NCBI GenBank assembly: GCA_001516765.1
Contig: LOCH01000008.1
Coordinates: forward strand, 1 to 11,135
Direction of reading: 5' to 3'
DNA from: Vulcanisaeta sp. MG_3
GTDB taxonomy: Archaea > Thermoproteota > Thermoprotei > Thermoproteales > Thermocladiaceae
Length of the DNA: 11,135 bases
Shown here piece by piece: positions 1 to 11,135 of this stretch; position 1 is the first letter of the stretch; every line of letters begins with the position of its first letter. The position numbers and the translations under genes were made by a program. The notes under the pieces were generated by a model, which worked only from the letters and a program-made list of their open reading frames with translations, made no database searches and was not told the DNA's origin.

Positions 1-507
1 CCCCGGAGGGTGGTCCCGTTGTATGGGGGTCTCGATATCAAGGAGGTAATGGACCACTCAGCAAATAGTAGATTCCCTAATAGGGAGCTCGTGCTGTATA
101 AGGATAGGTTCCTAACACCAGACGGCTTCGCCCACTTCAGACCTGTTAGGTACGTGGACAGGGTTAGGAATGGCTTGGTACTAATAACGGGCAGGGTGGT
201 CACGCACTTCAACACAGACACACTAACTGGTAGGCAGGGGTTATCGAAGCTTGAGGAGGTTGTCTACATTAATGAGGAGGATGCGAGGAGGCTTGGTATT
301 AGAGATGGTGACATGGTTAAAGTTGTTAGTGGGTGTGGCGAGGTTATTGTTAGGGCTAGGTTGAGTAGGGATGTTAAGGTTGGTCATGCGTTTATGGTGA
401 ACTCACTATCCATTACAAATAATGTGGTTTGTGATGAGTTGGATGAGGAGAGTAGGATACCGCTTTATAAGTCCACTGTCGTTAACATAACGCCAATTCA
501 TCCATAA
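1..507 (+). CDS. Molybdopterin oxidoreductase, C-terminal part (formate dehydrogenase/nitrate reductase type), cut by the window start
   Basis: The frame is open from base 1 and ends at TAA 505-507, so this is the tail of a longer gene; the GTG at 10 is probably not the true start. Residues near the beginning (GFAHFRPVRY, preceded by LTPDG) match the linker that precedes the last domain in DMSO-reductase-family enzymes. The stretch LITGRVVTHFNTDTLTGR matches the start of the molybdopterin-dinucleotide-binding domain, where formate dehydrogenases typically carry a TGR...H...T.TGR pattern. The following VYINEEDARRLGIRDGDMVKVVS is the usual double-psi barrel segment. The catalytic Cys/Sec and Fe-S region lie upstream and are not visible, so the substrate cannot be decided; formate, nitrate, thiosulfate/polysulfide or an unknown substrate are all possible. 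The next gene, 75 bases downstream on the same strand, is also a redox enzyme. Family is secure, substrate is not. Confidence 0.85.
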   Translation, partial: PRRVVPLYGGLDIKEVMDHSANSRFPNRELVLYKDRFLTPDGFAHFRPVRYVDRVRNGLVLITGRVVTHFNTDTLTGRQGLSKLEEVVYINEEDARRLGIRDGDMVKVVSGCGEVIVRARLSRDVKVGHAFMVNSLSITNNVVCDELDEESRIPLYKSTVVNITPIHP

Positions 508-548
508 GACCTACCTCACTAAAGTTAAAACAAACAATCAGTGAATCC

Positions 549-558
549 TTAATTAAAC
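549..558 (+). promoter_or_regulatory. Candidate TATA box of the CoA-disulfide-reductase-like gene
   Basis: TTAATTAAAC is centred about 29 bases before the ATG at 583. That spacing is expected if transcription starts at or next to the start codon (a leaderless archaeal transcript). No Shine-Dalgarno sequence precedes the ATG. Confidence 0.45.
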
Positions 559-582
559 TAGGATTAGGACTGACTGGACAAT

Positions 583-1902
583 ATGCGTGTGGTGATTATT
601 GGAGGCGGTGCGGCTGGAATGAGCGCCGCATCTAGAATTAGGAGGTTGAAGGGTGATGCTGAAATCATAGTTATCGAGAGGACAAACATTATTAGCCACG
701 CTCCCTGTGGAATACCCTACTTCCTCGCTGGATTTTTTGATAACTTCGAATTATTCATGCACTATACACCGGATTACTTCAGTAGTGTTAGGAAAATCAA
801 TGTTAGGCTTGGCGAAACAGCCGTTGAAGTTGGTGAGGGTTACGTAGTAACTAGTAGCCATAATAAGTTCGATTGGGATTACCTAGTGCTGGCTGTTGGT
901 GCCTCACCATCGATACCCAATGTGCCCATTGAGGGTGAGCACGTCGTCACAATACACCATCCAGCCGATGCCATAAGAATTAGAGAGCTACTTAATGCCT
1001 CCAGGAGGGTTGGTATTGTTGGTACAGGTTATATAGCGCTTGAGGTCGCTGAGGCGGCTAGGTTTAGGGGTAAGGATGTGGTGATGATTGGCAGGTCAGG
1101 CTACCCACTACGTAAGTCATTGGATGAGGATATGGGTAAGTACGTAATCGATGAGTTAATCAAGCATGGGATAAACCTAAGATTTAATGAGAGATTACTT
1201 GAGATAAATAGGGATGGCGATAGGCAGGTAATAATAACTGACTCGGGTAAGTACGAGGTCGACCTCGTAGTTTTAGCCACGGGAATAAGGCCAAACATAG
1301 AGTTAGCTAAACAACTCGGACTTAGGATCGGTGAGACAGGCGCTGTGTGGGTTGATGAGCACATGAGAACTAGTCATGAACATGTATACGCTGCCGGCGA
1401 CATAGCCGAGACTAGGCATGCCATAACGAATAAACCGTACTGGCATCCATTCGGCACAACGGCTAATAAGATGGGCTATGTAGCTGGTAGCAACATTGCT
1501 GGGTTTAGCATGAGGTTTCCAGGCGTTGCTGGTACGTCAATGACGAGGTTCATGAACCTATACATAGCAACCACAGGCTTGACGGAGGTGGATGCGAGGA
1601 GTTACGGCTTTAAGCCGGCGAGCACAGTAATCAAGTCCAGGATAAGGGCTAGGTACTACCCAGGCGGTGGTGATGTGATCATAAAACTCATAATCGATGA
1701 GAACTCACATAGAATACTCGGGGTTCAGGTTATAGGTGATGATGGATCTTACGTACTTGGGAAGGTTAATACAATAGCCGGCTTAATATTGAAGGGCGCC
1801 ACCGTTGAGGACCTATTCTTCACAGACATGGCTTACCTACCTGCTGTAACCCAGGTTTGGGACCCACTGATCATAGCCGCAAGGCAGTTTCTCAAATCGT
1901 GA
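583..1902 (+). CDS. FAD-dependent pyridine nucleotide-disulfide oxidoreductase, CoA-disulfide reductase/NADH oxidase/polysulfide reductase family
   Basis: This 439-residue protein has the full architecture of the single-cysteine flavoprotein disulfide reductases. The N-terminal FAD Rossmann motif GGGAAG is at residues 7-12. A single redox cysteine, C42, sits in APCGIPY, corresponding to the SCGxPY motif of CoA-disulfide reductase. The NAD(P)H-binding motif GTGYIALE is at about 147-154, ATGIRPN at 232-238, and the second FAD motif VYAAGDIAE at about 268-276. The C-terminal dimer-interface signature is recognisable as AYLPAVTQVWDP. Family members reduce CoA disulfide, polysulfide/sulfur or oxygen with NAD(P)H; sequence alone does not choose between them. 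The usual YxPPF of strict CoA-disulfide reductases reads YLPAV here, which weakens that specific call. There is no C-terminal rhodanese domain. Length is typical, and ATG 583 is placed by the Rossmann strand beginning at residue 2. The protein is soluble and cytoplasmic. Confidence 0.88.
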   Translation: MRVVIIGGGAAGMSAASRIRRLKGDAEIIVIERTNIISHAPCGIPYFLAGFFDNFELFMHYTPDYFSSVRKINVRLGETAVEVGEGYVVTSSHNKFDWDYLVLAVGASPSIPNVPIEGEHVVTIHHPADAIRIRELLNASRRVGIVGTGYIALEVAEAARFRGKDVVMIGRSGYPLRKSLDEDMGKYVIDELIKHGINLRFNERLLEINRDGDRQVIITDSGKYEVDLVVLATGIRPNIELAKQLGLRIGETGAVWVDEHMRTSHEHVYAAGDIAETRHAITNKPYWHPFGTTANKMGYVAGSNIAGFSMRFPGVAGTSMTRFMNLYIATTGLTEVDARSYGFKPASTVIKSRIRARYYPGGGDVIIKLIIDENSHRILGVQVIGDDGSYVLGKVNTIAGLILKGATVEDLFFTDMAYLPAVTQVWDPLIIAARQFLKS

Positions 1903-2064
1903 CGTAATTCCCCTAAATTATATACAATTTTATGCTTTTATATTAATTAATATAGAATTTTATATTAATCCATGCTGTTATTTTGAATGCGCAATCATAT
2001 GGCTATAACTTTTTGACGCAAAGCCACACCGTATTTAAATTATCGTTTTAATTCACCATACTTG
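1903..2064. promoter_or_regulatory. AT-rich intergenic region before the oxidase operon, with a palindrome and a direct repeat
   Basis: This gene-free stretch is very AT-rich. It contains a perfect 16-base palindrome, TATATTAATTAATATA, at 1939-1954. It also has a 12-base direct repeat, TTTTATATTAAT, at 1936-1947 and 1958-1969, giving a 22-base period (about two helical turns). The T-rich part just after 1902 could terminate the flavoprotein transcript, and the rest could hold a regulator site for the oxidase operon. Both roles are inferred. Confidence 0.4.
2032..2040 (+). promoter_or_regulatory. Candidate TATA box of the cytochrome bd-type oxidase operon
   Basis: TATTTAAAT is centred about 29 bases before the ATG at 2065, preceded by a purine-poor ACACCG. 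The position fits a leaderless start at 2062-2065. No ribosome-binding site is visible in front of the gene. Confidence 0.5.
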
Positions 2065-3030
2065 ATGACAGACCAAATACTGGGTGCACCTACTGTACTT
2101 AGGGTAATAACAGCCACTGGTGTACTGGCGCACCTGGCTTTGGCATCAAGCTTTCTGGGCACAATATTGATTGCTGTTGTCGCCGAGTACCTATACATGA
2201 GGTCGCACAATCAATTCTGGTTAAATACAGCCAGGGCTTTCTCTGTGGTGGCTACTATATTCTTTGGGGTCGGTGCGGCCTTCGGAACGCTCGTGGAGTT
2301 CGGCCTCGTTACGATATGGAGTAACTTCGTCTCATTAATTGGTGAAGCTATAGTCCTGCCTTTCTACCTAGAGTTGTTTGCATTTTTGATGGAGGTTATA
2401 ATACTCCCGTTGTATGTGTTTACCTGGGGTAAGATAAGGAATCAAGCATTACATTGGGTAATAGGTATTGCGGCAGCCTTTGGTGGCTATTACAGTGCCT
2501 ATAACATACTTGCGGTTATGGCCTCATTGAGCATGAGACCACCTGGTCTGGAGGTCATCAATCTCTATCAAGCCACTGGGCAGAACGTGGTTGGTCTAAC
2601 GGATTACGTAGTCAAGTGGGCTAATCCTGCCGATGCCTGGAATATGTTCTGGTGGGGCGCCAATGTCTTCATATTCCATGGTATATTGGCAGCCGTAATA
2701 TTTAGTTGGTCTGTTGTGGCGGCTATTTACCTGTACCTATACGTACGTGATAGGAAGCCCGAGAGGTTTATGATGCTTAAGGTTCTCGTACTAACCATTG
2801 CCGTATTAACGGCAATAGAGGGGTTCGTGCTAGGGCACTTCCAGGGTGAATTAGTTACTGATTTAGATCCGCTTAAGTTGGCGGCTCTTGAGGGCATGTT
2901 CTGGAGTGGACTTAGGGTTGACCCACTAACGAGTTTCCTTGCCTATGGCACATTCAACCACGCGTTCTGGGGCTACTATAGCTGGCCAGCGTCTGTGAGA
3001 CCTCCTGACTTCGTATTTGTATTCTATTGA
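2065..3030 (+). CDS. cydA: Cytochrome bd-type quinol oxidase subunit I (CydA), N-terminal portion ending at an in-frame TGA
   Basis: This is an integral membrane subunit of the terminal oxidase that oxidises quinol and reduces oxygen. Numbering is from ATG 2065; a TTG at 2062 is an alternative start. H23 in AHLALASS corresponds to the haem-ligand His19 of E. coli CydA. E103 and E110 in YLELFAFLME lie where the conserved acidic residues of helix 3 are found. H205 in FIFHGILAA corresponds to haem b558 ligand His186. The quinol-loop pair K271/E276 in KLAALE has the spacing of E. coli Lys252/Glu257. Translation as read stops after 321 residues, although family members are longer (commonly about 440-520 residues). 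The missing C-terminal helices follow in the same frame directly after the TGA, and both parts together give 466 codons. The N-terminal coding sequence shows no other damage. Confidence 0.88.
   Translation: MTDQILGAPTVLRVITATGVLAHLALASSFLGTILIAVVAEYLYMRSHNQFWLNTARAFSVVATIFFGVGAAFGTLVEFGLVTIWSNFVSLIGEAIVLPFYLELFAFLMEVIILPLYVFTWGKIRNQALHWVIGIAAAFGGYYSAYNILAVMASLSMRPPGLEVINLYQATGQNVVGLTDYVVKWANPADAWNMFWWGANVFIFHGILAAVIFSWSVVAAIYLYLYVRDRKPERFMMLKVLVLTIAVLTAIEGFVLGHFQGELVTDLDPLKLAALEGMFWSGLRVDPLTSFLAYGTFNHAFWGYYSWPASVRPPDFVFVFY
3028..3030 (+). other. In-frame TGA codon inside the CydA reading frame
   Basis: The codons before (FVFVFY) and after (VFMVIFG) the TGA are in the same frame. The Met three codons on, with Gly four residues later, fits the haem b558 ligand Met393 region (consensus MVxxG). 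By that alignment the TGA stands where E. coli has the aromatic F390. TGG (Trp) is one transition away; CGA, AGA, GGA, TCA, TTA, TGC and TGT are the other single-base sense neighbours. TGA is used as an ordinary terminator in this window (1902, 3462, 4732, 8791), so it is not reassigned genome-wide. Confidence 0.85.
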
Positions 3031-3462
3031 GTGTTCATGGTAATCTTTGGATTCCTACTTGGCGTGTGGACTGGAGCATTATCGCTCTGGTACTTATTTC
3101 CAGGCTTCTTCGGTCGTTTTAATTGGGCCAGGTCGCTGGCAAACTTCTTCGAGAGGAGTGGCGCCTACCTAATACCGTTCTTCGCAGCCTTCGCGGCAAT
3201 AGGAGGTTCGGTATCCGCAGAGAGTGGTAGATACCCATTCATATTGGTTCAAGCTGATCCAAACCCAAGCGGTGGACCACCAATAATCACCGGTGTCCCT
3301 GTTGGCTACGGTGGATTGCTGAATCCAACGATATCAATGCCTCTATGGCTTGCTGCCCTAGTGATTATAGTGGAGGTTGCAATGCCGGCGCTGGCTGTAT
3401 TCATGGTTTACCTATATACAACAAGAAAGCCGAAGATTGAAACTAAGGTGGTTGAGTATTGA
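3031..3462 (+). CDS. cydA: Cytochrome bd-type quinol oxidase subunit I (CydA), C-terminal portion downstream of the TGA
   Basis: This 143-codon stretch starts with GTG immediately after the TGA; an ATG lies two codons further on, at 3037. It encodes the last CydA helices. The Met in FMVIFG fits the haem b558 ligand position. AESGRYPF at about residues 63-70 matches the ExGRQPW signature, including the conserved glutamate that ligates a high-spin haem in CydA. A final hydrophobic segment ends in a basic tail (TTRKPKIETK). The signature is conserved, so the fragment appears to be under selection or only recently separated from its N-terminal part. If it is a separate polypeptide, it would need translational reinitiation, because no Shine-Dalgarno sequence is seen before 3031. 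Otherwise it is made by read-through of the TGA. It ends 10 bases before the next start codon. Confidence 0.82.
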   Translation: MFMVIFGFLLGVWTGALSLWYLFPGFFGRFNWARSLANFFERSGAYLIPFFAAFAAIGGSVSAESGRYPFILVQADPNPSGGPPIITGVPVGYGGLLNPTISMPLWLAALVIIVEVAMPALAVFMVYLYTTRKPKIETKVVEY

Positions 3463-3467
3463 GGTGG
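3461..3467 (+). promoter_or_regulatory. Shine-Dalgarno sequence of the CydA'-like gene
   Basis: GAGGTGG overlaps the stop codon of the preceding gene (3460-3462) and lies 5 bases before ATG 3473. It supports that ATG over an upstream ATG in the same frame at 3377, which would overlap cydA by 86 bases and add a charged, non-family N-terminus. It fits the general archaeal pattern in which internal operon genes carry Shine-Dalgarno sites and first genes are leaderless. Confidence 0.65.
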
Positions 3468-3472
3468 TGGGT

Positions 3473-4732
3473 ATGGTCTCGGCGACAGACGTGGCCGTAG
3501 GCTTAATCGCATGGGCCTTTGCGGTTCACCTGCCGTTAGTTTATACCGTACTTGGTTTAGGCTGGTTGTTGCCGACGCTTGAGTATATTGGTTATAAACG
3601 CAATAGGCAGGTCTATGTTGACCTAGCCCACAACATGGCTAGCTACTTAATTACTGTCTATGCAATAGGTGGCTTGTTCGGTACCATAATAACCGTCTTC
3701 CTGGCTGGGTTACTGCCCATATTCACGAACATAGCCGGGGCGTTATTGTGGCCAGTGTGGGGTGTTGCGATTGTGTTTGGAGTCGCCATAGCGCTACCCT
3801 TCATAGGCTTTTACTACAGGGGTTTTGGTAGGTTATCGCCTATGAGGCATGTGCTGGTTGGTTATGGTATGGCCATAGCCCTAACCGTAATACCTGCAAT
3901 GTTTAGGCTCGTCTTCGCCTTCATAAACTATCCGGCCGGTGTTGAGGTGTTCAAGAGTAGTACCTCGATTGTTGGCTTCACCCTAGGTATTAACTGGGGC
4001 GAGGTCTTTGATAACCCAACGTACGCGCCCCTGTTCCTGGCCACGTTGTTTGGCGCCATAGCGATGACAGGCATATTGATATCATCGATATTCGGCTGGA
4101 GATATTCAGTGGATAGGAGTGACTATAGATTAACTGGTTATAGGGTTGGCAACATGGTTGGTTTAGTATTTGGTGCACTCTATGCCATATTTGCCGGTCT
4201 CTATGTGTATGAGGTTTACAACTATTCACCAACGGTTGCCTGGTCAATACTTGGTAAACCGCCTGCATATCTACCCTCAGCACTTTACTCGGTCTATGAA
4301 CCAACAATAAACCTGAGCGGCATATTCTACGCAGACGTGGCGCTAGGATTGATATTACTCGTGTTGATACTGGCCTCCTTTAAGTACGTAAATAGGGCTG
4401 TTTCAGCACTAAAGCTGATTCTCGTGCTAGCCCTAATGGACAGTGCCGAGGTCATGAATGGGCTTGCCCACCTACCGTATGCAATAGTTCCTCCACTAAA
4501 TGCCGTCCCTGTGCTCGTTAAGGCGTATGGTCTACAGTTCACATTGCAGGTTGCTGACACGCTCAAGGTTTCCACATTATTGACACCGCAATTGAACGCC
4601 CTGTTGCAGCTTGTGGAGGTGCAGCCGGGCTTATTATATGGCTCACTCGTGGCCTTTGCATTCTTTAATGCACTCCTGCTTTACGTAATATACGCAGCCC
4701 TATCCTGGAAGTGGTCCCCATTAAAGACTTGA
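3473..4732 (+). CDS. Second CydA-like oxidase subunit (CydA'), replacing CydB
   Basis: This 419-residue multi-pass membrane protein is predicted from long hydrophobic segments throughout. Its position directly after CydA, its length and its N-terminal pattern (AVHLPLVYTVLGLGW) mark it as the CydA' partner found in archaeal CydAA' oxidases; the Caldivirga maquilingensis CydAA' is reported to be an active oxygen reductase. H19 is kept at the high-spin haem-ligand position. By hand alignment, the position of haem b558 ligand His186 is an alanine, about A190 in FLATLFGAIAMTG. No quinol loop KLAAxE motif is seen, and the helix 3 acidic residues are missing (ALLWPVWGVAIVFG). This suggests a structural or haem-scaffold partner lacking its own quinol site. 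It is translationally linked to cydA by a 10-base gap and a Shine-Dalgarno site. It is convergent with the next gene, with only 6 bases between the stops. Confidence 0.75.
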   Translation: MVSATDVAVGLIAWAFAVHLPLVYTVLGLGWLLPTLEYIGYKRNRQVYVDLAHNMASYLITVYAIGGLFGTIITVFLAGLLPIFTNIAGALLWPVWGVAIVFGVAIALPFIGFYYRGFGRLSPMRHVLVGYGMAIALTVIPAMFRLVFAFINYPAGVEVFKSSTSIVGFTLGINWGEVFDNPTYAPLFLATLFGAIAMTGILISSIFGWRYSVDRSDYRLTGYRVGNMVGLVFGALYAIFAGLYVYEVYNYSPTVAWSILGKPPAYLPSALYSVYEPTINLSGIFYADVALGLILLVLILASFKYVNRAVSALKLILVLALMDSAEVMNGLAHLPYAIVPPLNAVPVLVKAYGLQFTLQVADTLKVSTLLTPQLNALLQLVEVQPGLLYGSLVAFAFFNALLLYVIYAALSWKWSPLKT

Positions 4733-4738
4733 TGCCTC

Positions 4739-6244
4739 TTACGTACCTAGGATCACGTTTAAAACCCTACCCATCATTTCCCTGATCAACCTCCTCATAG
4801 TTCCTGATATTAGGATTGACACTGCCGTGTACACCAGGAGGACGGCTATTGAGACCTCAACAACCTGCACCAGCGATATGTAAATATTTGGCATAAGCTT
4901 AATGACCCAGTAATGCCGTACCACCAGTAATAGGGCTAGGGAAACAACGAGTGGTGCCAGGTAATCCCTTAATAAATTACTGCCGCCAAAGATAGTTCTA
5001 AGGTGACCAAGCCTATTCAATCTAAATAATAACGCGGTTACATTCGCAAGCAGCGAGGACACTAGGGCGCCTAGGATGGCATAGTACGCAAAGCCTAGGT
5101 ACTTGAATAGGAGTATTAGGGGCACCATTGTTGTTAGGTAGACCACCGTGAAGGCAAGCTCGGCTAAGTGGGCATAAAGCACCAAGCTGCCCAGATAAAC
5201 CCCAGGCCTTATGCTTTCGCTGATGATATCTTTCTTATCTATGCCCTGCATCACATTACTAATGAATTGATTAACATTCCCCAAAACACCACTAATGACC
5301 ATGAGCAATACGGGAAGGATAAGTAGGTTGAACTCACCCTCCATGCCGGGTCTAACAAGGTTTAGGTAGATTGTGGGGAATAGGGCTAGGGCTAACATGA
5401 CGTAGGTGGATATGAAGAGGATGATTAGTAAGTCCCTGTAAACAATGCCAAATCTCTCCCTCTCAAGTAGTTCCCCATACGTTATGCTCACTAGAGTATT
5501 GCCGTAAGCAAGGGGCTTACTGAGTATGAATAGTACATACCAAACACCCAGTTGGGCGTAACCGAGAAGGCCTATGAATATGGCATCAAGGGCTCTGAAG
5601 GAGTTTATGGCATAACCCATGAGTGGTACCCAGGACGCGTTAATGACCTCCCTGAAGTATCTACGTAGGTTATGAATGTTCAGGTTGAATCTTAAGGTGT
5701 AGATGAATGAGTAGAGTGTTGGTATGAAGACTATAACGAACGTTGACCATAGTACAGCATCAACAGACCATTTAAACAGCATAATCACTGGGATTACTAC
5801 GAACTTCATAATTGACTGTATTATCGATGAAATAACGAACCTACCCCTATCCTTAACCATTAGTATGGAATTCGTAACCGACTGAAGATAGTAGGTGACC
5901 TCAGACAACAGAGCCACCACGAGCACTAGAAATGCGTATTGTCCCATCTTAATCCAAACACCTAGGAGGTAGGCTGTGGTGAGTATCATCGTTACCAGGT
6001 AAAATATTGAGGATACACCCAACACGGACCTTATATTTACACCACCATCCCTGGCAACGAGCCTTGGATATGCGAAATTGAGGATTGCCGTTGGTAATAG
6101 CGAGAAGGCAATGGATGCATTTAAGAGCGATAATAAGCCCAAACCCACAGTGGGTATTTTCCTGGTTATCGCAATATTATACGTGAAACTACTCAAAAGC
6201 GTCAATAACGACGAAACCACAGCCATAAGCCTTACATGCCTCAT
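4739..6244 (-). CDS. Multi-pass membrane protein, polysaccharide (lipid-linked oligosaccharide) flippase-like, MOP/MATE superfamily
   Basis: The protein is hydrophobic over its whole length, with roughly 12-14 likely membrane helices and short charged loops, as in Wzx/RfbX-type flippases of the MOP exporter superfamily. The N-terminal pattern (LLSLLNASIAFSLLPTAILNFAYPRL) resembles the first two to three helices of this family, with a Pro-Arg after helix 2. The role, by family, would be flipping lipid-linked sugars across the membrane for glycoprotein or S-layer glycan assembly. No glycosyltransferase neighbours support it. The longest frame starts at ATG 6274. I prefer the in-frame ATG at 6244 (501 residues) because the TATA-like box at 6275-6283 overlaps the upstream ATG and is properly spaced for a short leader before 6244. 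The gene is convergent with the oxidase operon. Confidence 0.65.
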   Translation of the reverse strand: MRHVRLMAVVSSLLTLLSSFTYNIAITRKIPTVGLGLLSLLNASIAFSLLPTAILNFAYPRLVARDGGVNIRSVLGVSSIFYLVTMILTTAYLLGVWIKMGQYAFLVLVVALLSEVTYYLQSVTNSILMVKDRGRFVISSIIQSIMKFVVIPVIMLFKWSVDAVLWSTFVIVFIPTLYSFIYTLRFNLNIHNLRRYFREVINASWVPLMGYAINSFRALDAIFIGLLGYAQLGVWYVLFILSKPLAYGNTLVSITYGELLERERFGIVYRDLLIILFISTYVMLALALFPTIYLNLVRPGMEGEFNLLILPVLLMVISGVLGNVNQFISNVMQGIDKKDIISESIRPGVYLGSLVLYAHLAELAFTVVYLTTMVPLILLFKYLGFAYYAILGALVSSLLANVTALLFRLNRLGHLRTIFGGSNLLRDYLAPLVVSLALLLVVRHYWVIKLMPNIYISLVQVVEVSIAVLLVYTAVSILISGTMRRLIREMMGRVLNVILGT

Positions 6245-6274
6245 CGAATTCAACAGAGATTGAGAATTCTGCAT

Positions 6275-6283
6275 TTAAAATAT
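6275..6283 (-). promoter_or_regulatory. Candidate TATA box of the flippase-like gene
   Basis: On the minus strand this reads ATATTTTAA, preceded by a purine-rich GAGGA that could be a BRE-like element. Transcription would start about 8 bases before ATG 6244. This is inferred from spacing only. Confidence 0.4.
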
Positions 6284-6344
6284 TCCTCACATCATTACAG
6301 CACCTCACCATTGGTTGAAGGATTACCCTGTAATTCAATAATAA

Positions 6345-6353
6345 CCTTATAAT
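6345..6353 (+). promoter_or_regulatory. Candidate TATA box of the winged-helix gene
   Basis: CCTTATAAT is centred about 27 bases before ATG 6377, as expected for a leaderless transcript. The 102-132 bases between the two divergent genes hold both promoters. Confidence 0.45.
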
Positions 6354-6376
6354 GGTGCGGTTGTAGGTCTTGTTAA

Positions 6377-7312
6377 ATGGGTCTTTGGTTGATTTACGGG
6401 TCCCTGGGACTTGACCACCTAATACACGGTATACTGCCTAGTGGTGATTTTCTATTCTCCACAATATGCAATAATCCCAACAACAGTACGGGGATAAACA
6501 TAAACCTAAACCCTAGCATCAGCGTTAGGGTGGCGGTCCTGTGGAGTAGAATACTAAATCTTAGTGATGATGATTCAAGGCTGCTACTTGATTCATTGCT
6601 TAGCTCTAACACACTCCTTGACGCCATAAATTACATACTGGAGACTTACGTGGATTACAACGCAGCGAAACTTTATTACTACATGAGGATCATGAACACA
6701 CTAAACATATGGAGCCCGATAAACAGGGGTTGTGTATCAATACCACTTATTGAGCCCATAAAGTCCATGGTCTCATCAGTAATACTAGCACACATGGCTA
6801 GTACAAACACCAGGGGTTCTGTCGTAATAACCACGGACTACATCGATGAGATGAAGGACGCACTACAGGAGGTTAGGGGTTTTGGCAACATATACGTGGT
6901 CACGAATAGGCTACCACGCGATCTCGGCATATTTGATGATTTAATAATAACCACAACCCACGTACCCCAGGAGGTCTTCGGTAAATTAATAAGGGTTAGC
7001 AATGGATCCAGTGCTGACGTCATAATGACTAAGCTTGGCGCAGGTACAGTCAACAACAACTTTATAGAGGCAAGGTCGCAGTTGGGTGATGTTGAGTTGG
7101 AGATTTTGAAGACCGTGAATGAGCTCGGGTTCACAACAATGGGCTCTTTAATAGACATGGTCTCCCAATCAATGGGTGTCACTAGGAATGACGTTATTAA
7201 GGCGCTAATAAGGGTCTCAAGCATGAACCTAGTTAAGGTTAGGTACTTAGCCGATGGTAGGGCAGTGATCACGCCAACACTGGCTGGGCTCAAGTTATTG
7301 ATTCCTAAATAG
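6377..7312 (+). CDS. Unrecognised protein with C-terminal winged-helix domain and possible degenerate P-loop (HerA/VirB4-like) domain
   Basis: I do not recognise this 311-residue protein as a named family. Residues about 237-309 look like a winged helix: a first helix (VELEILKTVNELG), a second (TTMGSLIDMVSQSMG), a recognition-type helix (TRNDVIKALIRVSSMNLV), then a beta-hairpin wing (KVRYLADGRAVITPT). Residues about 117-230 show alternating beta-strand-like and helical segments (SVVITTDYIDEM, NIYVVTNRLPRDLGIFDDLIITTTHVPQEV). They resemble the Walker B to sensor part of HerA/VirB4-type ATPases, with TTD in place of the acidic Walker B pair. No Walker A motif (GxxGxGKT/S) exists; the nearest is GSLGLDHLIHG at residues 8-18, lacking Lys-Thr. 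It could therefore be a non-hydrolysing paralogue or an unrelated fold. It appears to be a single-gene unit, leaderless. The coding call is strong; the domain idea is weak apart from the winged helix. Confidence 0.75.
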   Translation: MGLWLIYGSLGLDHLIHGILPSGDFLFSTICNNPNNSTGININLNPSISVRVAVLWSRILNLSDDDSRLLLDSLLSSNTLLDAINYILETYVDYNAAKLYYYMRIMNTLNIWSPINRGCVSIPLIEPIKSMVSSVILAHMASTNTRGSVVITTDYIDEMKDALQEVRGFGNIYVVTNRLPRDLGIFDDLIITTTHVPQEVFGKLIRVSNGSSADVIMTKLGAGTVNNNFIEARSQLGDVELEILKTVNELGFTTMGSLIDMVSQSMGVTRNDVIKALIRVSSMNLVKVRYLADGRAVITPTLAGLKLLIPK

Positions 7313-7374
7313 TCTTTATTATAATAAATATAACTTATTTACTTAATTATTTATGATGAATAACTATAGAGAAG

Positions 7375-7385
7375 AATTTATTAAT
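7375..7385 (+). promoter_or_regulatory. Candidate TATA box of the aminotransferase gene
   Basis: AATTTATTAAT is centred about 29 bases before ATG 7409. A GGGGTGA stretch at 7398-7404 lies 4 bases before the ATG and might act as a ribosome-binding site if the transcript starts slightly earlier. The preceding AT-rich region (7313-7374) holds nothing else that I can recognise. Confidence 0.45.
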
Positions 7386-7408
7386 GAGGTAAATTATGGG
7401 GTGAATGT

Positions 7409-8791
7409 ATGTCACTTAGGTGGTACTGGCCAATAGATGTTAAGGACGTGCCTAAAATAGTTGTTGAACCGCCTGGCCCGAAGGCTCAGGAAATCGTCAA
7501 AGCAGATGAATCCCTAGTAATGCAATCCTTTGGTCGGTGGTACCCATTGGTTATTCGGCGGGGTTATGGGCCTGTTGTTGAGGATGTCGATGGTAATCTG
7601 TACATAGACTTCAATTCAGGCATTGCTGTGATGAATGTTGGCCATAGTCACCCGCGTATTGTCGAGGCCATTAAACGGCAGGCTGAGTTATTCACTCACT
7701 ACAGCATGACCGACTTCTACTATGAGCTATTGATTAAGCATGCGTCAATGCTTAGGGATATCGTGCCTATAGGTGGCGATAAGAGGGTCTTTTACACGAA
7801 CTCTGGTACTGAGTCGATAGAGGGTGCGTTGAAGATAGCCAGGGGGCACTTCAGGAATCAGAGACCGTATGTAATGGCATTCTTAGGCGCATTTCACGGT
7901 AGGACGTACGGTTCAATGGCCTTAACCGCCAGTAAGCCAATACAGAGGTTTGGTTTCAACCCAATGTTACCCAACGTGATTCATGTACCGTACCCATACC
8001 CATACAGATGCCCGTTTGGTAAGGAATTGAGCGAGGAAGAGTGCGGTGAGGCTGTCCTTGGTTATATCGAGGATTGGATATTTGGCAAAATGGTTGACCC
8101 AAGCGAGGTTTCGGCAATATTCTTCGAGCCAATACAGGGTGAGGGTGGTTACGTAGTTCCACCAAGAAACTTCTTCCCAGGGTTGCGTAAGTTGGCTGAT
8201 AAGTACGGGATATTGCTTGTGGATGATGAAGTCCAGGCTGGTTTTGGTAGGACTGGTAAGTGGTTCGCAATTGAGCACTGGGGTGTGGAGCCGGACATAA
8301 TAACGATGGCTAAGGCAATAGCCGCAGGCTTGCCTCTAGGCGCGATTGTTGGTAGGGCAAGCGTTATGGACCTGCCCAGGGGGTCCCACGCAAACACCTT
8401 TGGTGGTAACCCGGTAGCGCTTGCCGCGGGTGTTGAGGTAATAAACATAATAGCTGAGGAGGACCTATTGACAAACGCCCAGAGGGTTGGTGAGTACATT
8501 AAGCGTAGGTTCATTGAGGAGATGGATAGGACTGAGCTTATTGGTGATGTTAGGGGGCTTGGTTTAATGATTGGTGTGGAGCTTGTTAGGAACAGGAAGA
8601 CTAAGGAGTACGCCACCAAGGAGCTTGAGCAGGTACTTTATGAATCGTTTAAGAGGGGCGTTGCTGTCATAGGTTCTGGGAAATCCACGATACGAATTGC
8701 ACCACCGCTTAATATACCGATGGAGCTTGCCGAGAGGGCTGTGGATATAATAATAGATGTTATTAGAAAGGTTGATAGAGAACGCAGGTGA
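7409..8791 (+). CDS. Class III PLP-dependent aminotransferase (4-aminobutyrate/ornithine aminotransferase-like)
   Basis: This 460-residue cytoplasmic enzyme has all class III aminotransferase landmarks. They include DFNSGIAVMNVGHSHP at about 67-82, the phosphate-binding NSGTES at 131-136 and FHGRTYG at 162-168. EPIQGEGGY is at about 240-248, and D273 in DDEVQAGFGRTG is the residue that contacts the PLP pyridine nitrogen. The Schiff-base lysine is K302 in TMAKAIAAGLPLGA, and ANTFGGNP is at 328-335. The wording of these motifs is closest to archaeal proteins annotated as GABA aminotransferases; in Thermococcales several such proteins proved to be ornithine aminotransferases or amino-acid racemases. 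The substrate (GABA, ornithine, lysine, or racemase activity) therefore stays open. Acetylornithine aminotransferases are usually shorter (about 400 residues) and lack this N-terminal extension. No biosynthetic neighbours help. It is convergent with the small gene on the minus strand, only 2 bases apart. Confidence 0.92.
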   Translation: MSLRWYWPIDVKDVPKIVVEPPGPKAQEIVKADESLVMQSFGRWYPLVIRRGYGPVVEDVDGNLYIDFNSGIAVMNVGHSHPRIVEAIKRQAELFTHYSMTDFYYELLIKHASMLRDIVPIGGDKRVFYTNSGTESIEGALKIARGHFRNQRPYVMAFLGAFHGRTYGSMALTASKPIQRFGFNPMLPNVIHVPYPYPYRCPFGKELSEEECGEAVLGYIEDWIFGKMVDPSEVSAIFFEPIQGEGGYVVPPRNFFPGLRKLADKYGILLVDDEVQAGFGRTGKWFAIEHWGVEPDIITMAKAIAAGLPLGAIVGRASVMDLPRGSHANTFGGNPVALAAGVEVINIIAEEDLLTNAQRVGEYIKRRFIEEMDRTELIGDVRGLGLMIGVELVRNRKTKEYATKELEQVLYESFKRGVAVIGSGKSTIRIAPPLNIPMELAERAVDIIIDVIRKVDRERR

Positions 8792-8793
8792 GG

Positions 8794-9024
8794 TCAATTA
8801 ATGAGTGCATCCTTTAAAACTTCCCTCTCTTCCTCGAGATACCACTCCAAAATATAATCATGCTTGTCGGCATAATCCCTCGCGAATTCAAAGGCAGCCC
8901 TCCAATCATTATTCTCGTGAATCACCCTCCAACCTTCATCAATTAATGCCTCATCCTCAGGCTTGCCACTAACTAAAACCCTACCTACCCTCCTGTTGAC
9001 GAAGACCTTGTACCTGGGGCTCAT
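8794..9024 (-). CDS. Small protein of unknown function (76 residues)
   Basis: I do not recognise a family. The product starts MSPRYKVFVNRRVGRVLVSG, which looks like two beta strands, followed by acidic and helical segments with many aromatic residues (DEGWRVIHENNDWRAAFEFARDYADKHDYILEWYLEEER). It has no membrane segment, no cysteines and no obvious DNA-binding motif. The frame can be extended to GTG 9033 (79 residues). I prefer ATG 9024 because a TATA-like element at about 9047-9056 sits 27 bases before it and the palindrome at 9031-9042 then lies in the promoter or leader rather than in the coding region. It ends 2 bases from the convergent aminotransferase stop. Balanced amino-acid composition supports a real gene, but there is no independent proof. 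Confidence 0.6.
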   Translation of the reverse strand: MSPRYKVFVNRRVGRVLVSGKPEDEALIDEGWRVIHENNDWRAAFEFARDYADKHDYILEWYLEEEREVLKDALIN

Positions 9025-9030
9025 CAGTAT

Positions 9031-9042
9031 CACGTATACGTG
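9031..9042. promoter_or_regulatory. Perfect 12-base palindrome at the promoter of the small gene (operator-like)
   Basis: CACGTATACGTG reads identically on both strands. It lies between a TATA-like element (minus strand CTTTTTAACC at about 9047-9056) and ATG 9024, so it would cover the transcription start. That is a typical place for a repressor site. A second TATA-like element (minus strand GTTTAAATA, at about 9070-9078) lies further upstream. The operator role is inferred. Confidence 0.4.
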
Positions 9043-9103
9043 TACAGGTTAAAAAGTGCTTCCAGGTTTTTATTTAAACAGTACACTGAAACTTTCACTG
9101 AAC

Positions 9104-10024
9104 TTACGTGGAATTCACGAAACGATCAATTATATCTATGTACTTGTATATATCATCGGGGAAAATCAATAGGTAGGTCACATCACCTAATCGCTCCCTG
9201 ACCTTAAGAAAGGCTTGAAAGACAGCACCGCTACTAAGGCCAATGAGTAATCCCTCGCTCCTGGCAACCCTAATGACACCATCAACAGCCTCCTCAAGGC
9301 TAACGTCAATAACCTCATCAACAACCTCGCGGGCCCACCTAGTCCCTGACTCAAGGCGCTTAATGCCGGGTATTACGTTGTTGATCGCAGGTTCGACACC
9401 AACAACATAGACATCGCCAAAGGCGTCCCTAAGCCTCCTAGCAATACCCGTCACATGCCCACCAGTGCCTATACCGGCAATCAGTACCCTCGGTCTCCTA
9501 CCAATGCTCATGAACTGGTCCACAATCTCACCACCGGTGAAGTAGTAATGCCCCTCTGGATTATCAGTGTTCTCGAATTGATTAAGGTTTATTGCGCCAT
9601 CCCTAGTAGCATTATCCCTAACCCAACGCCAAAAACCCTCATCAATACTATCCCTATCAACCTTAACAACCTCCGCACCCAACACCCTAAGCAAAACCTC
9701 AGTCGTCCTAGGTAAATGCTTGGTTGTGTAAGCCCTGTACCTAAAACCGTATATATTAGCCAAAGCTGCCAGCGCTACCGCGACATTGCCCGAGGAAGCC
9801 TCCTCAACGAGACCACCGTACAATCCATCGTTTAGGAACCTACGTAGCAGGAAGAAGACGGTCCTATCCTTAATACTCCTACTCAGTGGGTTAAAGAACT
9901 CGAGCTTAGCCCAAACATCACCAAAATGCTCAAGCCTCACTAGGGGCGTGGGCCATAAACCGGTAACTAGATCTTGGACGCTAGGGAAAACATTATTACG
10001 GGTACTCCCTGCAAATACCAACAC
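9104..10024 (-). CDS. PLP-dependent cysteine synthase family enzyme (possibly O-phosphoserine sulfhydrylase-like)
   Basis: At 306 residues it has the length of O-acetylserine sulfhydrylases. The Schiff-base lysine is K52 in NPLSRSIKDR. The asparagine/substrate loop SSGN is at 77-80, and the signature NQFENTDNPEGHYYFTGGEI starts at about 148. The PLP phosphate loop GIGTGGH is at 184-190, and GLSSGA at about 262-267 carries the serine that contacts the pyridine nitrogen. Ordinary bacterial CysK has NPGGSVKDR; the SRSIKDR form resembles archaeal O-phosphoserine sulfhydrylases such as the Aeropyrum enzyme. O-phosphoserine is therefore a reasonable alternative acyl donor, from memory of that family and not proved. 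The product makes L-cysteine from sulfide in the cytoplasm. The start is GTG 10024: the frame is closed by a stop just upstream and no in-frame ATG precedes the family's conserved N-terminus. TTG 10021 is an alternative. A TATA-like box lies at 10054-10064. Confidence 0.88.
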   Translation of the reverse strand: MLVFAGSTRNNVFPSVQDLVTGLWPTPLVRLEHFGDVWAKLEFFNPLSRSIKDRTVFFLLRRFLNDGLYGGLVEEASSGNVAVALAALANIYGFRYRAYTTKHLPRTTEVLLRVLGAEVVKVDRDSIDEGFWRWVRDNATRDGAINLNQFENTDNPEGHYYFTGGEIVDQFMSIGRRPRVLIAGIGTGGHVTGIARRLRDAFGDVYVVGVEPAINNVIPGIKRLESGTRWAREVVDEVIDVSLEEAVDGVIRVARSEGLLIGLSSGAVFQAFLKVRERLGDVTYLLIFPDDIYKYIDIIDRFVNST

Positions 10025-10053
10025 CCATCATACATAGTACTGGTCAAGTTGGG

Positions 10054-10064
10054 CCTTAATAAGG
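10054..10064. promoter_or_regulatory. Symmetrical TATA-like element, possibly serving both strands
   Basis: CCTTAATAAGG (arms CCTTA and TAAGG around one base) is nearly identical on both strands. On the minus strand it is about 34 bases before GTG 10024, giving a leader of roughly 8 bases. On the plus strand transcription would begin about 10086-10090, exactly where the GC-rich structured block begins. Both uses are inferred from spacing. Confidence 0.4.
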
Positions 10065-10087
10065 ATTATTTCGGAATTCACTGTTTT

Positions 10088-10163
10088 AGAGGAGGATGTG
10101 CGAATCCCCGCGGTTCGTCAGTCCGTTTTCATCGGGGACCGCCACGGTCCTCTCTGGGACCTC
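10088..10163. ncRNA. Candidate structured RNA: GC-rich, self-complementary block, strand uncertain
   Basis: This stretch of about 75 bases is much richer in G and C than its flanks and folds on paper into one long hairpin. The basal stem pairs AGAG (10088-10091) with CTCT (10152-10155), then AGGA (10093-10096) with TCCT (10148-10151), leaving one bulged base. After an internal loop of 8-9 bases per side comes a perfect 6-pair stem, TCCCCG (10105-10110) with CGGGGA (10133-10138). Above it CGG/CCG (10111-10113, 10123-10125) closes a 9-base loop. It matches no tRNA, 5S, SRP or RNase P RNA motif that I know. A plus-strand transcript would start from the box at 10054-10064; a minus-strand one could start from the AT-rich box at 10181-10190. 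The minus strand carries GATGA and CTGA in its apical part, loosely like an L7Ae-bound kink-turn, and ends near an ACA, so an H/ACA-like guide is conceivable. A uS17 leader is less likely, given the closer promoter at 10213. Confidence 0.35.
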
Positions 10164-10244
10164 GTAAATCACTGCCAACCTTAATATTTAAGCCTTTGGT
10201 TCGCAAAAGAAATTGTTTTAAAGGGGTTCCCTACCTCATGGTCG
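10164..10244 (+). promoter_or_regulatory. Promoter region of the uS17 gene
   Basis: TTGTTTTAAA at 10213-10222, preceded by GAAA, is centred about 27 bases before ATG 10245 and is the best TATA candidate for a leaderless uS17 transcript. A second AT-rich, nearly palindromic box, TTAATATTTAA (10181-10191), could be a further promoter on either strand. An upstream ATG at 10238 is out of frame. No Shine-Dalgarno sequence precedes ATG 10245. Confidence 0.45.
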
Positions 10245-10697
10245 ATGGTTGAAGTAATAGTTAAGGAGATGCCAGAGAGGCCTAGGCCTGGTGAGAAGGT
10301 TCAGTTGCCCAATGGTGAATTCATAAGGGTTAGGCATGTTGGGATCCCATGGATACTGCCACCGAAGAAGGTATGTAATGACCCTGAGTGCCCGTGGCAT
10401 GGTCACTTAAGCGTTAGGAGTCAGGTGTTCACGGTAACTGTTGAGAGCGTTCATGGGAGGAGCGCCGTGGTAATACACGAATGGTTGCATTATAACCCTA
10501 AGTATAAGAGGTATGAGAGGAGGAGGAAGAAGATGCATGTCAGGGTTCCGCCATGCATTGACGTGAGACCTGGTGATATCGTATATATAGGCGAGACCAG
10601 GCCCTTGGCTAAGACGGTTAGGCATGTTGTGATAGGTAGGATTGAGGATACTACCGAGGTTAAGCCCCAGGTAGTTAGGCTTGAGCAGCAACAATAA
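10245..10697 (+). CDS. rps17: Small-subunit ribosomal protein uS17, archaeal type
   Basis: This 150-residue protein has the archaeal/eukaryotic uS17 form. It has an N-terminal extension with an inserted segment C44-N-D-P-E-C49-P-W-H52-G-H54, typical of archaeal S17 and a conceivable metal site. The OB-fold follows (SQVFTVTVESVHGRSAVVIHEWLHYNPKYKRYERRRKKMHVRVP), then the PGDIVYIGETRPLAKTVRHVVIG motif that corresponds to the classic GDxVxIxExRPLSKTK signature. It binds 16S rRNA early in small-subunit assembly. The C-terminal VKPQVVRLEQQQ tail is a lineage extension. The gene stands alone here; the usual partners L29, L14 and L24 of the large ribosomal operon are not adjacent. ATG 10245 is supported by the TATA box 27 bases upstream and by the family N-terminus. 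Confidence 0.95.
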   Translation: MVEVIVKEMPERPRPGEKVQLPNGEFIRVRHVGIPWILPPKKVCNDPECPWHGHLSVRSQVFTVTVESVHGRSAVVIHEWLHYNPKYKRYERRRKKMHVRVPPCIDVRPGDIVYIGETRPLAKTVRHVVIGRIEDTTEVKPQVVRLEQQQ

Positions 10698-10698
10698 T

Positions 10699-10706
10699 CC
10701 TTTTTA
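10699..10706 (+). promoter_or_regulatory. T-rich element: uS17 terminator and/or TATA box of the TatD-like gene
   Basis: CCTTTTTA directly follows the uS17 stop codon (10695-10697) and could end that transcript, since archaeal terminators are often simple T-runs. Its centre also lies about 27 bases before ATG 10730, the leaderless promoter spacing. The two roles are not exclusive. Confidence 0.4.
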
Positions 10707-10729
10707 GTAACTATTTAATCAATGGATCA

Positions 10730-11135
10730 ATGCTTTATGACGCACACACCCACCTACATGAATTCCTAGATAGCCGAGTCGAGGAATTTACTAAGGAGAT
10801 AGTCATAGTAGGAGTCTCAGATGACTACCCATCATCAAGAAGAACGCTTGAGCTTGCCGAAAGGTTCAATAATATAGTGCCCTGTGTTGGTATTCACCCA
10901 TGGAACGTGGATAAGGTTAGTATAGATGAGCTGAGACAATTGGAGAGGTTGGTTTCTGAGGCTAAGTGTATTGGTGAGGTTGGTCTTGACAGGAGATTTG
11001 TGCCCCAGACCTTCGATAGGCAGTTGGAGTTCTTTAGGACCTTTGTAACGTGGGCTAGGGATTACGACCTGCCACTCAATATTCATGCGCCAGATGCCTG
11101 GAGGGATGTACTGGAGTTGGTCAGGAGGAGCGATG
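10730..11135 (+). CDS. TatD-family metal-dependent hydrolase/DNase, N-terminal part, cut by the window end
   Basis: An ATG at 10730 opens a frame that stays open through the last base (135 codons visible). The product begins MLYDAHTHLHEF, with the HxH metal-binding pair of the amidohydrolase-fold TatD family (H6 and H8). VGIHPWNV corresponds to the conserved GxHP motif. IGEVGLD matches the IGEIGLD motif whose glutamate binds metal, and FRTFVTWARDYDLPLNIHAPDAW contains the next metal-ligand histidine (IHxR/IHA position). TatD proteins are 3'-5' exonucleases or uncharacterised hydrolases; the archaeal members are mostly unassigned. The last Asp ligand would be beyond the window. The start is fixed by the family N-terminus and by the T-rich/TATA element 27 bases upstream. 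Confidence 0.85.
   Translation, partial: MLYDAHTHLHEFLDSRVEEFTKEIVIVGVSDDYPSSRRTLELAERFNNIVPCVGIHPWNVDKVSIDELRQLERLVSEAKCIGEVGLDRRFVPQTFDRQLEFFRTFVTWARDYDLPLNIHAPDAWRDVLELVRRSD

Follow-up and report, generated by a model that had tools for sequence, protein, structure and literature searches.

An apparently private TGA codon in the cydA gene of the draft genome of Vulcanisaeta sp. MG_3

Archaea reportedly possess a cytochrome bd oxidase of the CydAA' type, said to have been described by Murali, Gennis and Hemp in 2021. The locus presented here resembles that system in that a cydA gene matching PF01654 is followed by an adjacent second PF01654 subunit, and in that the CydA it encodes shares 70-94% identity with Caldivirga and Vulcanisaeta proteins; it differs in that cydA carries one in-frame TGA, at codon 322. 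For the oxidase of Escherichia coli, a published account names His186 and Met393 as the ligands of b558 and Glu445 as the ligand of b595 (PMC6853902). Two further described phenomena invite comparison with an in-frame stop of this kind. The first is the read-through of stop codons for Sec and Pyl, which exists in archaea according to a second source (PMC8211752). With these cases the window shares an in-frame stop within a conserved reading frame, but here the stop is unconserved, no tRNA-Sec exceeds the cut-off, and the relatives carry Trp or Leu rather than Cys at the site. The second is the artefactual pseudogene of draft assemblies: a third source attributes many apparent pseudogenes to errors of assembly, which it associates with the assembler, the platform and the coverage (PMC11017572). 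The likeness lies in a fragmented draft with an isolated internal stop in a gene that is conserved otherwise; the difference is that the lesion at codon 322 is a substitution, whereas the other breaks seen in the source draft are frameshifts.

The window, that is, the whole stretch of 11,135 nt that was analysed, spans positions 1 to 11,135 of the forward strand of contig LOCH01000008.1 (GCA_001516765.1). It belongs to the draft genome of the hot-spring archaeon Vulcanisaeta sp. MG_3, which comprises 1,054,034 bases in 164 contigs at a completeness of 54.61%. An earlier reading of this DNA from its letters alone (the sequence-only reading) had described positions 2065-3462 as a single CydA frame of 466 codons, final stop included, broken by a TGA alone. 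This was confirmed, in that codon 322 is the sole internal stop of the frame and lies three codons 5' of the conserved Met325. The N-terminal half matches PF01654 (Cyt_bd_oxida_I) with an E-value of 4.4e-46 over profile positions 3-313 of 418; the C-terminal half by itself matches no Pfam family at E 0.001 and can be aligned over its length with unbroken relatives. The neighbouring cydA' (3473-4729; E 1.9e-16 against the same profile) encodes a CydA-like subunit adjoining cydA, and the pair formed by cydA and cydA', the latter starting at ATG 3473, is an ordinary archaeal CydAA' oxidase. The remaining features are collected in Table 1, including the TATTTAAATTAT stretch 5' of cydA, a possible candidate promoter for a leaderless cydA mRNA.

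Table 1. Features of the cydA/cydA' locus in the window, and frameshifted genes elsewhere in the source draft
Feature	Position	Strand	Remarks
A/T-rich TATTTAAATTAT stretch	2030..2045	+	20-35 bases 5' of the cydA ATG; read from the sequence
cydA (cytochrome bd oxidase subunit I, archaeal CydAA' type)	2065..3462	+	465 codons and a stop; broken at codon 322
cydA N-half, 321 codons	2065..3027	+	PF01654 match; invariant His23, Lys271 and Glu276
In-frame TGA	3028..3030	+	Codon 322; TGG in 8/8 same-genus genomes with a frame over the site
cydA C-half, 143 codons	3031..3459	+	Met325 and ESGRxP motif; first codon GTG
cydA' (second PF01654 subunit)	3473..4732	+	Intact frame; strong Shine-Dalgarno pairing
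Frameshifted source-draft genes			One each in L065, L070, L077, L081 and L178; two in L174

The position of the stop was placed in structural terms by a profile alignment with chain A of 5doq, in which Met325 and Glu378 are haem ligands. Met325 of the window falls opposite residue 325 of that chain, counted along the alignment, and the window's ESGR falls opposite AEVGR. The claim that the TGA stands just before a haem-ligand methionine is therefore supported. In the sequence as given, the TGA parts Met325 and the ESGRxP glutamate from the N-terminal half, such that the haem ligands do not lie on one chain. The residues singled out earlier as diagnostic fared unevenly: His23, His205, Lys271 and Glu276 are all invariant among the aligned archaeal homologues, but a role of His205 as a haem ligand found no confirmation, for it lies opposite a Ser of 5doq, nine residues from the residue counted there as His186.

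The state of codon 322 was compared across relatives. The cydA search took in 61 genomes, the source draft included, and 39 of these matched at E 0.001, many of them through distant paralogues. Ten of the 11 other genomes of the genus gave a match, and in the eight whose frame covers the site (G002-G007, G010 and G011) codon 322 is TGG throughout; in G001 and G008 it lies outside the covered frame, and G009 has no match. A stop at codon 322 was seen in no relative, including 0 of the 8 covering genomes of the genus. One locus, L003, has a frameshift about seven codons 5' of codon 322, with the TGG found past that frameshift. The loci of other genera have Leu codons at the site, with the exception of one Trp (L007). 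At the protein level, where scoring was confined to the 8000 candidates sharing most words with the query, the nearest homologue (P0001; 465 aa, 94% identical, its cluster comprising 72 members) carries W at the site, and the residue is W or L in all 20 aligned homologues and Sec or Cys in none; the site thus tolerates W or L. P0002, from Vulcanisaeta sp. AZ3, has Leu rather than Trp at this position. The cydA match of G005 counts one TAG and that of G033 one TGA; the site codons are TGG and Leu, respectively. The comparison with related cydA genes, proposed as a check by the sequence-only reading, gave TGG in every covering genome of the genus, and the TGA is best read as a single-base difference peculiar to one draft and not as a programmed feature.

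Divergence on either side of the stop bears on its age. Amino-acid changes assigned to the lineages of the window and of P0001 number 5 and 7 before the stop and 6 and 5 beyond it; a further 2 and 1 could not be placed. Changes of the window lineage are thus not in excess past the stop, the C-terminal half is not decayed, and any real stop is young. The dN/dS ratio was higher after the stop in four pairs, both parts being computable in four of the five, but it was also higher after the site in nine of ten pairs of unbroken relatives and is therefore uninformative about the stop.

From this evidence we infer, as our first choice, a consensus sequence error at codon 322, to which we attach a probability of about one half. 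If the consensus is wrong in this way, the cell would make a normal CydAA' oxidase. The TGG of all covering genomes and the W of P0001 point to this reading, as do the fragmentation and low completeness of the source draft, the undecayed part after the stop and the attribution of many apparent pseudogenes to assembly errors in PMC11017572. The assembly also holds a raised number of genes with frameshifts, which argues in the same direction. To obtain this count, 36 contigs of the source draft (354,388 bases) were compared with open frames drawn from 800 kb of G011, with the complete genome G007 (54 genes) and the draft G006 (51 genes) serving as comparison genomes. A first frame comparison flagged 8 of 82 genes in the source draft (G000), 3 of 54 in G007 and 3 of 51 in G006; a repeat on the same genes, under a single rule for all three sets, flagged 8, 2 and 1. 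Events were excluded by eye when they lay 5' of the start codon, fell into antisense shadow frames or arose from a neighbouring copy. These were, for the first comparison, stops in L066 and L181 of the source draft, a frame change and two stops in L153 of G007, and six stops in L154 and L169 of G006; for the repeat, the L143 row of G007; and for both, one frame change in L081 of the source draft (query L129), which is doubtful, and the frame change in L161 of G006. L153 and L181 were assessed on the first comparison only.

Apart from the gene in the window, frameshifts then remained in 7 of 81 source-draft genes, as against 1 of 54 in G007 (L140) and 0 of 51 in G006, and the difference between 7/81 and 1/105 gave a p value of 0.022 in a Fisher test on small counts curated by eye. 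The affected source-draft genes in L070, L077, L081, L174 and L178 have one or two frameshifts apiece, in frames that are conserved otherwise. Counting the doubtful L081 gene gives 8/81 (p 0.011), allowing one more in the controls gives 7/81 versus 2/105 (p 0.042), and taking the first comparison alone with L077 added gives 5/81 (p 0.087). The rise of the count from 5 to 7 leaves the odds between error and mutation unchanged, because frameshift counts cannot separate errors from real pseudogenes. The earlier remark that there is no frameshift or other decay thus holds for this cydA and not for the assembly, other genes of which are broken. Against a sequence error stands the kind of lesion: after inspection, the cydA of the window holds the sole true in-frame stop among the 82 source-draft genes. 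A coding-potential scan for same-frame interruptions gave five candidates in a stricter run and 11, including the window, in a looser one; by eye, the others resembled ordinary adjacent genes, although a few were unclear. Frameshifts in cydA occur elsewhere as well, in G002, G003, G005 and G008 and in the loci L003, L008, L010, L011 and L012 (with some overlap between the two sets of genomes), and none of them is at codon 322. Those in L003 (4900-5010) and L011 (4880-4990) lie about ten codons or less 5' of the site, beside C/G runs. Should the base prove wrong, the lesson would be that an isolated stop in a draft genome calls for a comparison with relatives, and with how often genes are broken in that assembly, before recoding is inferred.

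A real and recent strain-specific nonsense mutation is a serious, if tentative, second possibility. CydA would then end after 321 residues, short of both Met325 and the glutamate of ESGRxP, and should have no activity; the CydAA' oxidase would be lost, perhaps together with a second bd oxidase, in an organism living without oxygen. A second cydA/cydA' pair is present in the source draft (L065, on contig C21 of G000, 6200-8961). Close to its N-terminus, cydA2 is frameshifted at five C in a row, a place at which the orthologues of six genomes of the genus (G004, G006, G007, G008, G010 and G011) are unbroken. Both cydA genes of the source draft are therefore interrupted, a finding no less compatible with a true loss of oxygen respiration than with sequence error. 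A haem-copper oxidase was not found in the roughly half-complete source draft, as compared with 4 of the 12 genus genomes that have one, and a single break free of later decay would fit a young mutation. Against such a loss, the cydA' partners of both pairs have intact frames, window-lineage changes are not in excess after the stop, and cydA2 is likewise fragmented in two further drafts, G002 and G005, so that drafts as such may account for its breakage; moreover, roughly half of the genome is missing from the source draft, and frameshifts affect genes that have no link to respiration. Should the TGA be real, the draft may have lost both of the bd oxidases found in it, and this would offer a testable indication of a move to anoxic life.

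Of the four possibilities listed by the sequence-only reading, the nonsense mutation and the base-calling error are accordingly favoured, while programmed read-through and a genuinely split CydA are unsupported. Its suggestion of a new two-piece or recoded oxidase met with no positive evidence among the features sought, namely a Shine-Dalgarno sequence at the GTG, a tRNA-Sec over the cut-off or an Rfam match near the site. We consider these two functional readings unlikely even when taken jointly, and it is a shade less likely again that the strain carries the TGA yet makes active CydA, whether by inefficient read-through or from two separately translated pieces. Were this so, a crenarchaeon would express a terminal oxidase from a broken frame. 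No report of read-through or splitting of cydA appeared among the literature search results examined.

In read-through, a suppressor or near-cognate tRNA would insert Trp or a different residue at the TGA, yielding some full-length CydA, and we regard it as very improbable. The conserved frame 3' of the stop and the precedent of Sec and Pyl in archaea, as given in PMC8211752, favour it, and the absence of a stop at this site in any relative weighs against it. Global reassignment of TGA is ruled out, as had been claimed: TGA closes 58 of 173 open segments of at least 200 codons on 21 contigs, the interrupted segment of the window being among the 58, and the Trp columns agree. Across 72 frames aligned to G011, reference-Trp columns hold TGG 274 times and TGA twice, once at codon 322 and once at L065:7834, 5' of the start of cydA'2; codon 322 is thus the only TGA at such a column inside a gene among these frames. 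Selenocysteine is without support, given that no tRNA-Sec (RF01852) scored over the cut-off in any of the 12 genus genomes and none of the 20 aligned homologues carries Sec or Cys. Weak matches below the cut-off occur in all 12 and in the controls, and 5 of 14 controls pass. The 12 tRNAs found in the draft, from which about half the genome is missing, comprise seven with an anticodon, none of them for Trp or TGA, and five without, three of which were confirmed by Infernal at the gathering score; a suppressor tRNA may therefore still exist. A cis-acting RNA element was also rejected: the sole Rfam match in the window up to E 1 lies far from codon 322, at 8486-8540, and falls below the gathering score.

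Least probable of all is a two-piece CydA, in which the C-terminal half, made by reinitiation at GTG 3031 or ATG 3037, would assemble with the N-terminal half. A start codon immediately 3' of the stop and the conservation of both halves speak for it, but the GTG is kept in only one (G011) of eight genus genomes, most relatives having GTC, GCC or GTA; it falls inside a predicted helix (residues 317-344), which the break would divide; and a start at ATG 3037 would make Met325 the first residue. The shorter homologues from the whole-protein search (P0066, P0067, P0069 and P0070) include none that ends at the site. A search with the C-terminal half, admitting proteins of up to about 250 residues, gave five proteins, four of which begin elsewhere and one of which, P0080, begins at the residue equivalent to Met325. 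This last is a point in favour, tempered by its 97% identity to a protein of G007 whose frame is unbroken. A break in the P0080 gene lies somewhere 5' of that Met; the sequence may stem from a draft interrupted at an earlier point, on the pattern of the frameshift of L003. No homologue appears to be split at codon 322, with P0080 as a small doubt.

Pairing with an anti-Shine-Dalgarno tail taken from the 16S ends of four relatives points the same way, with values of +0.5 at GTG 3031 and -2.7 at ATG 3037, equalled or bettered by 96% and 71% of in-frame cydA positions, respectively, as against -11.9 at the cydA' ATG 3473. As the cydA start itself is without such pairing (+0.7), the test weighs solely against an internal start led by a Shine-Dalgarno sequence, and cydA may be leaderless. 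The Shine-Dalgarno sequence of cydA' (window 3455-3475) overlaps the true stop of cydA, which suggests a translational coupling of the two genes that a premature stop could weaken.
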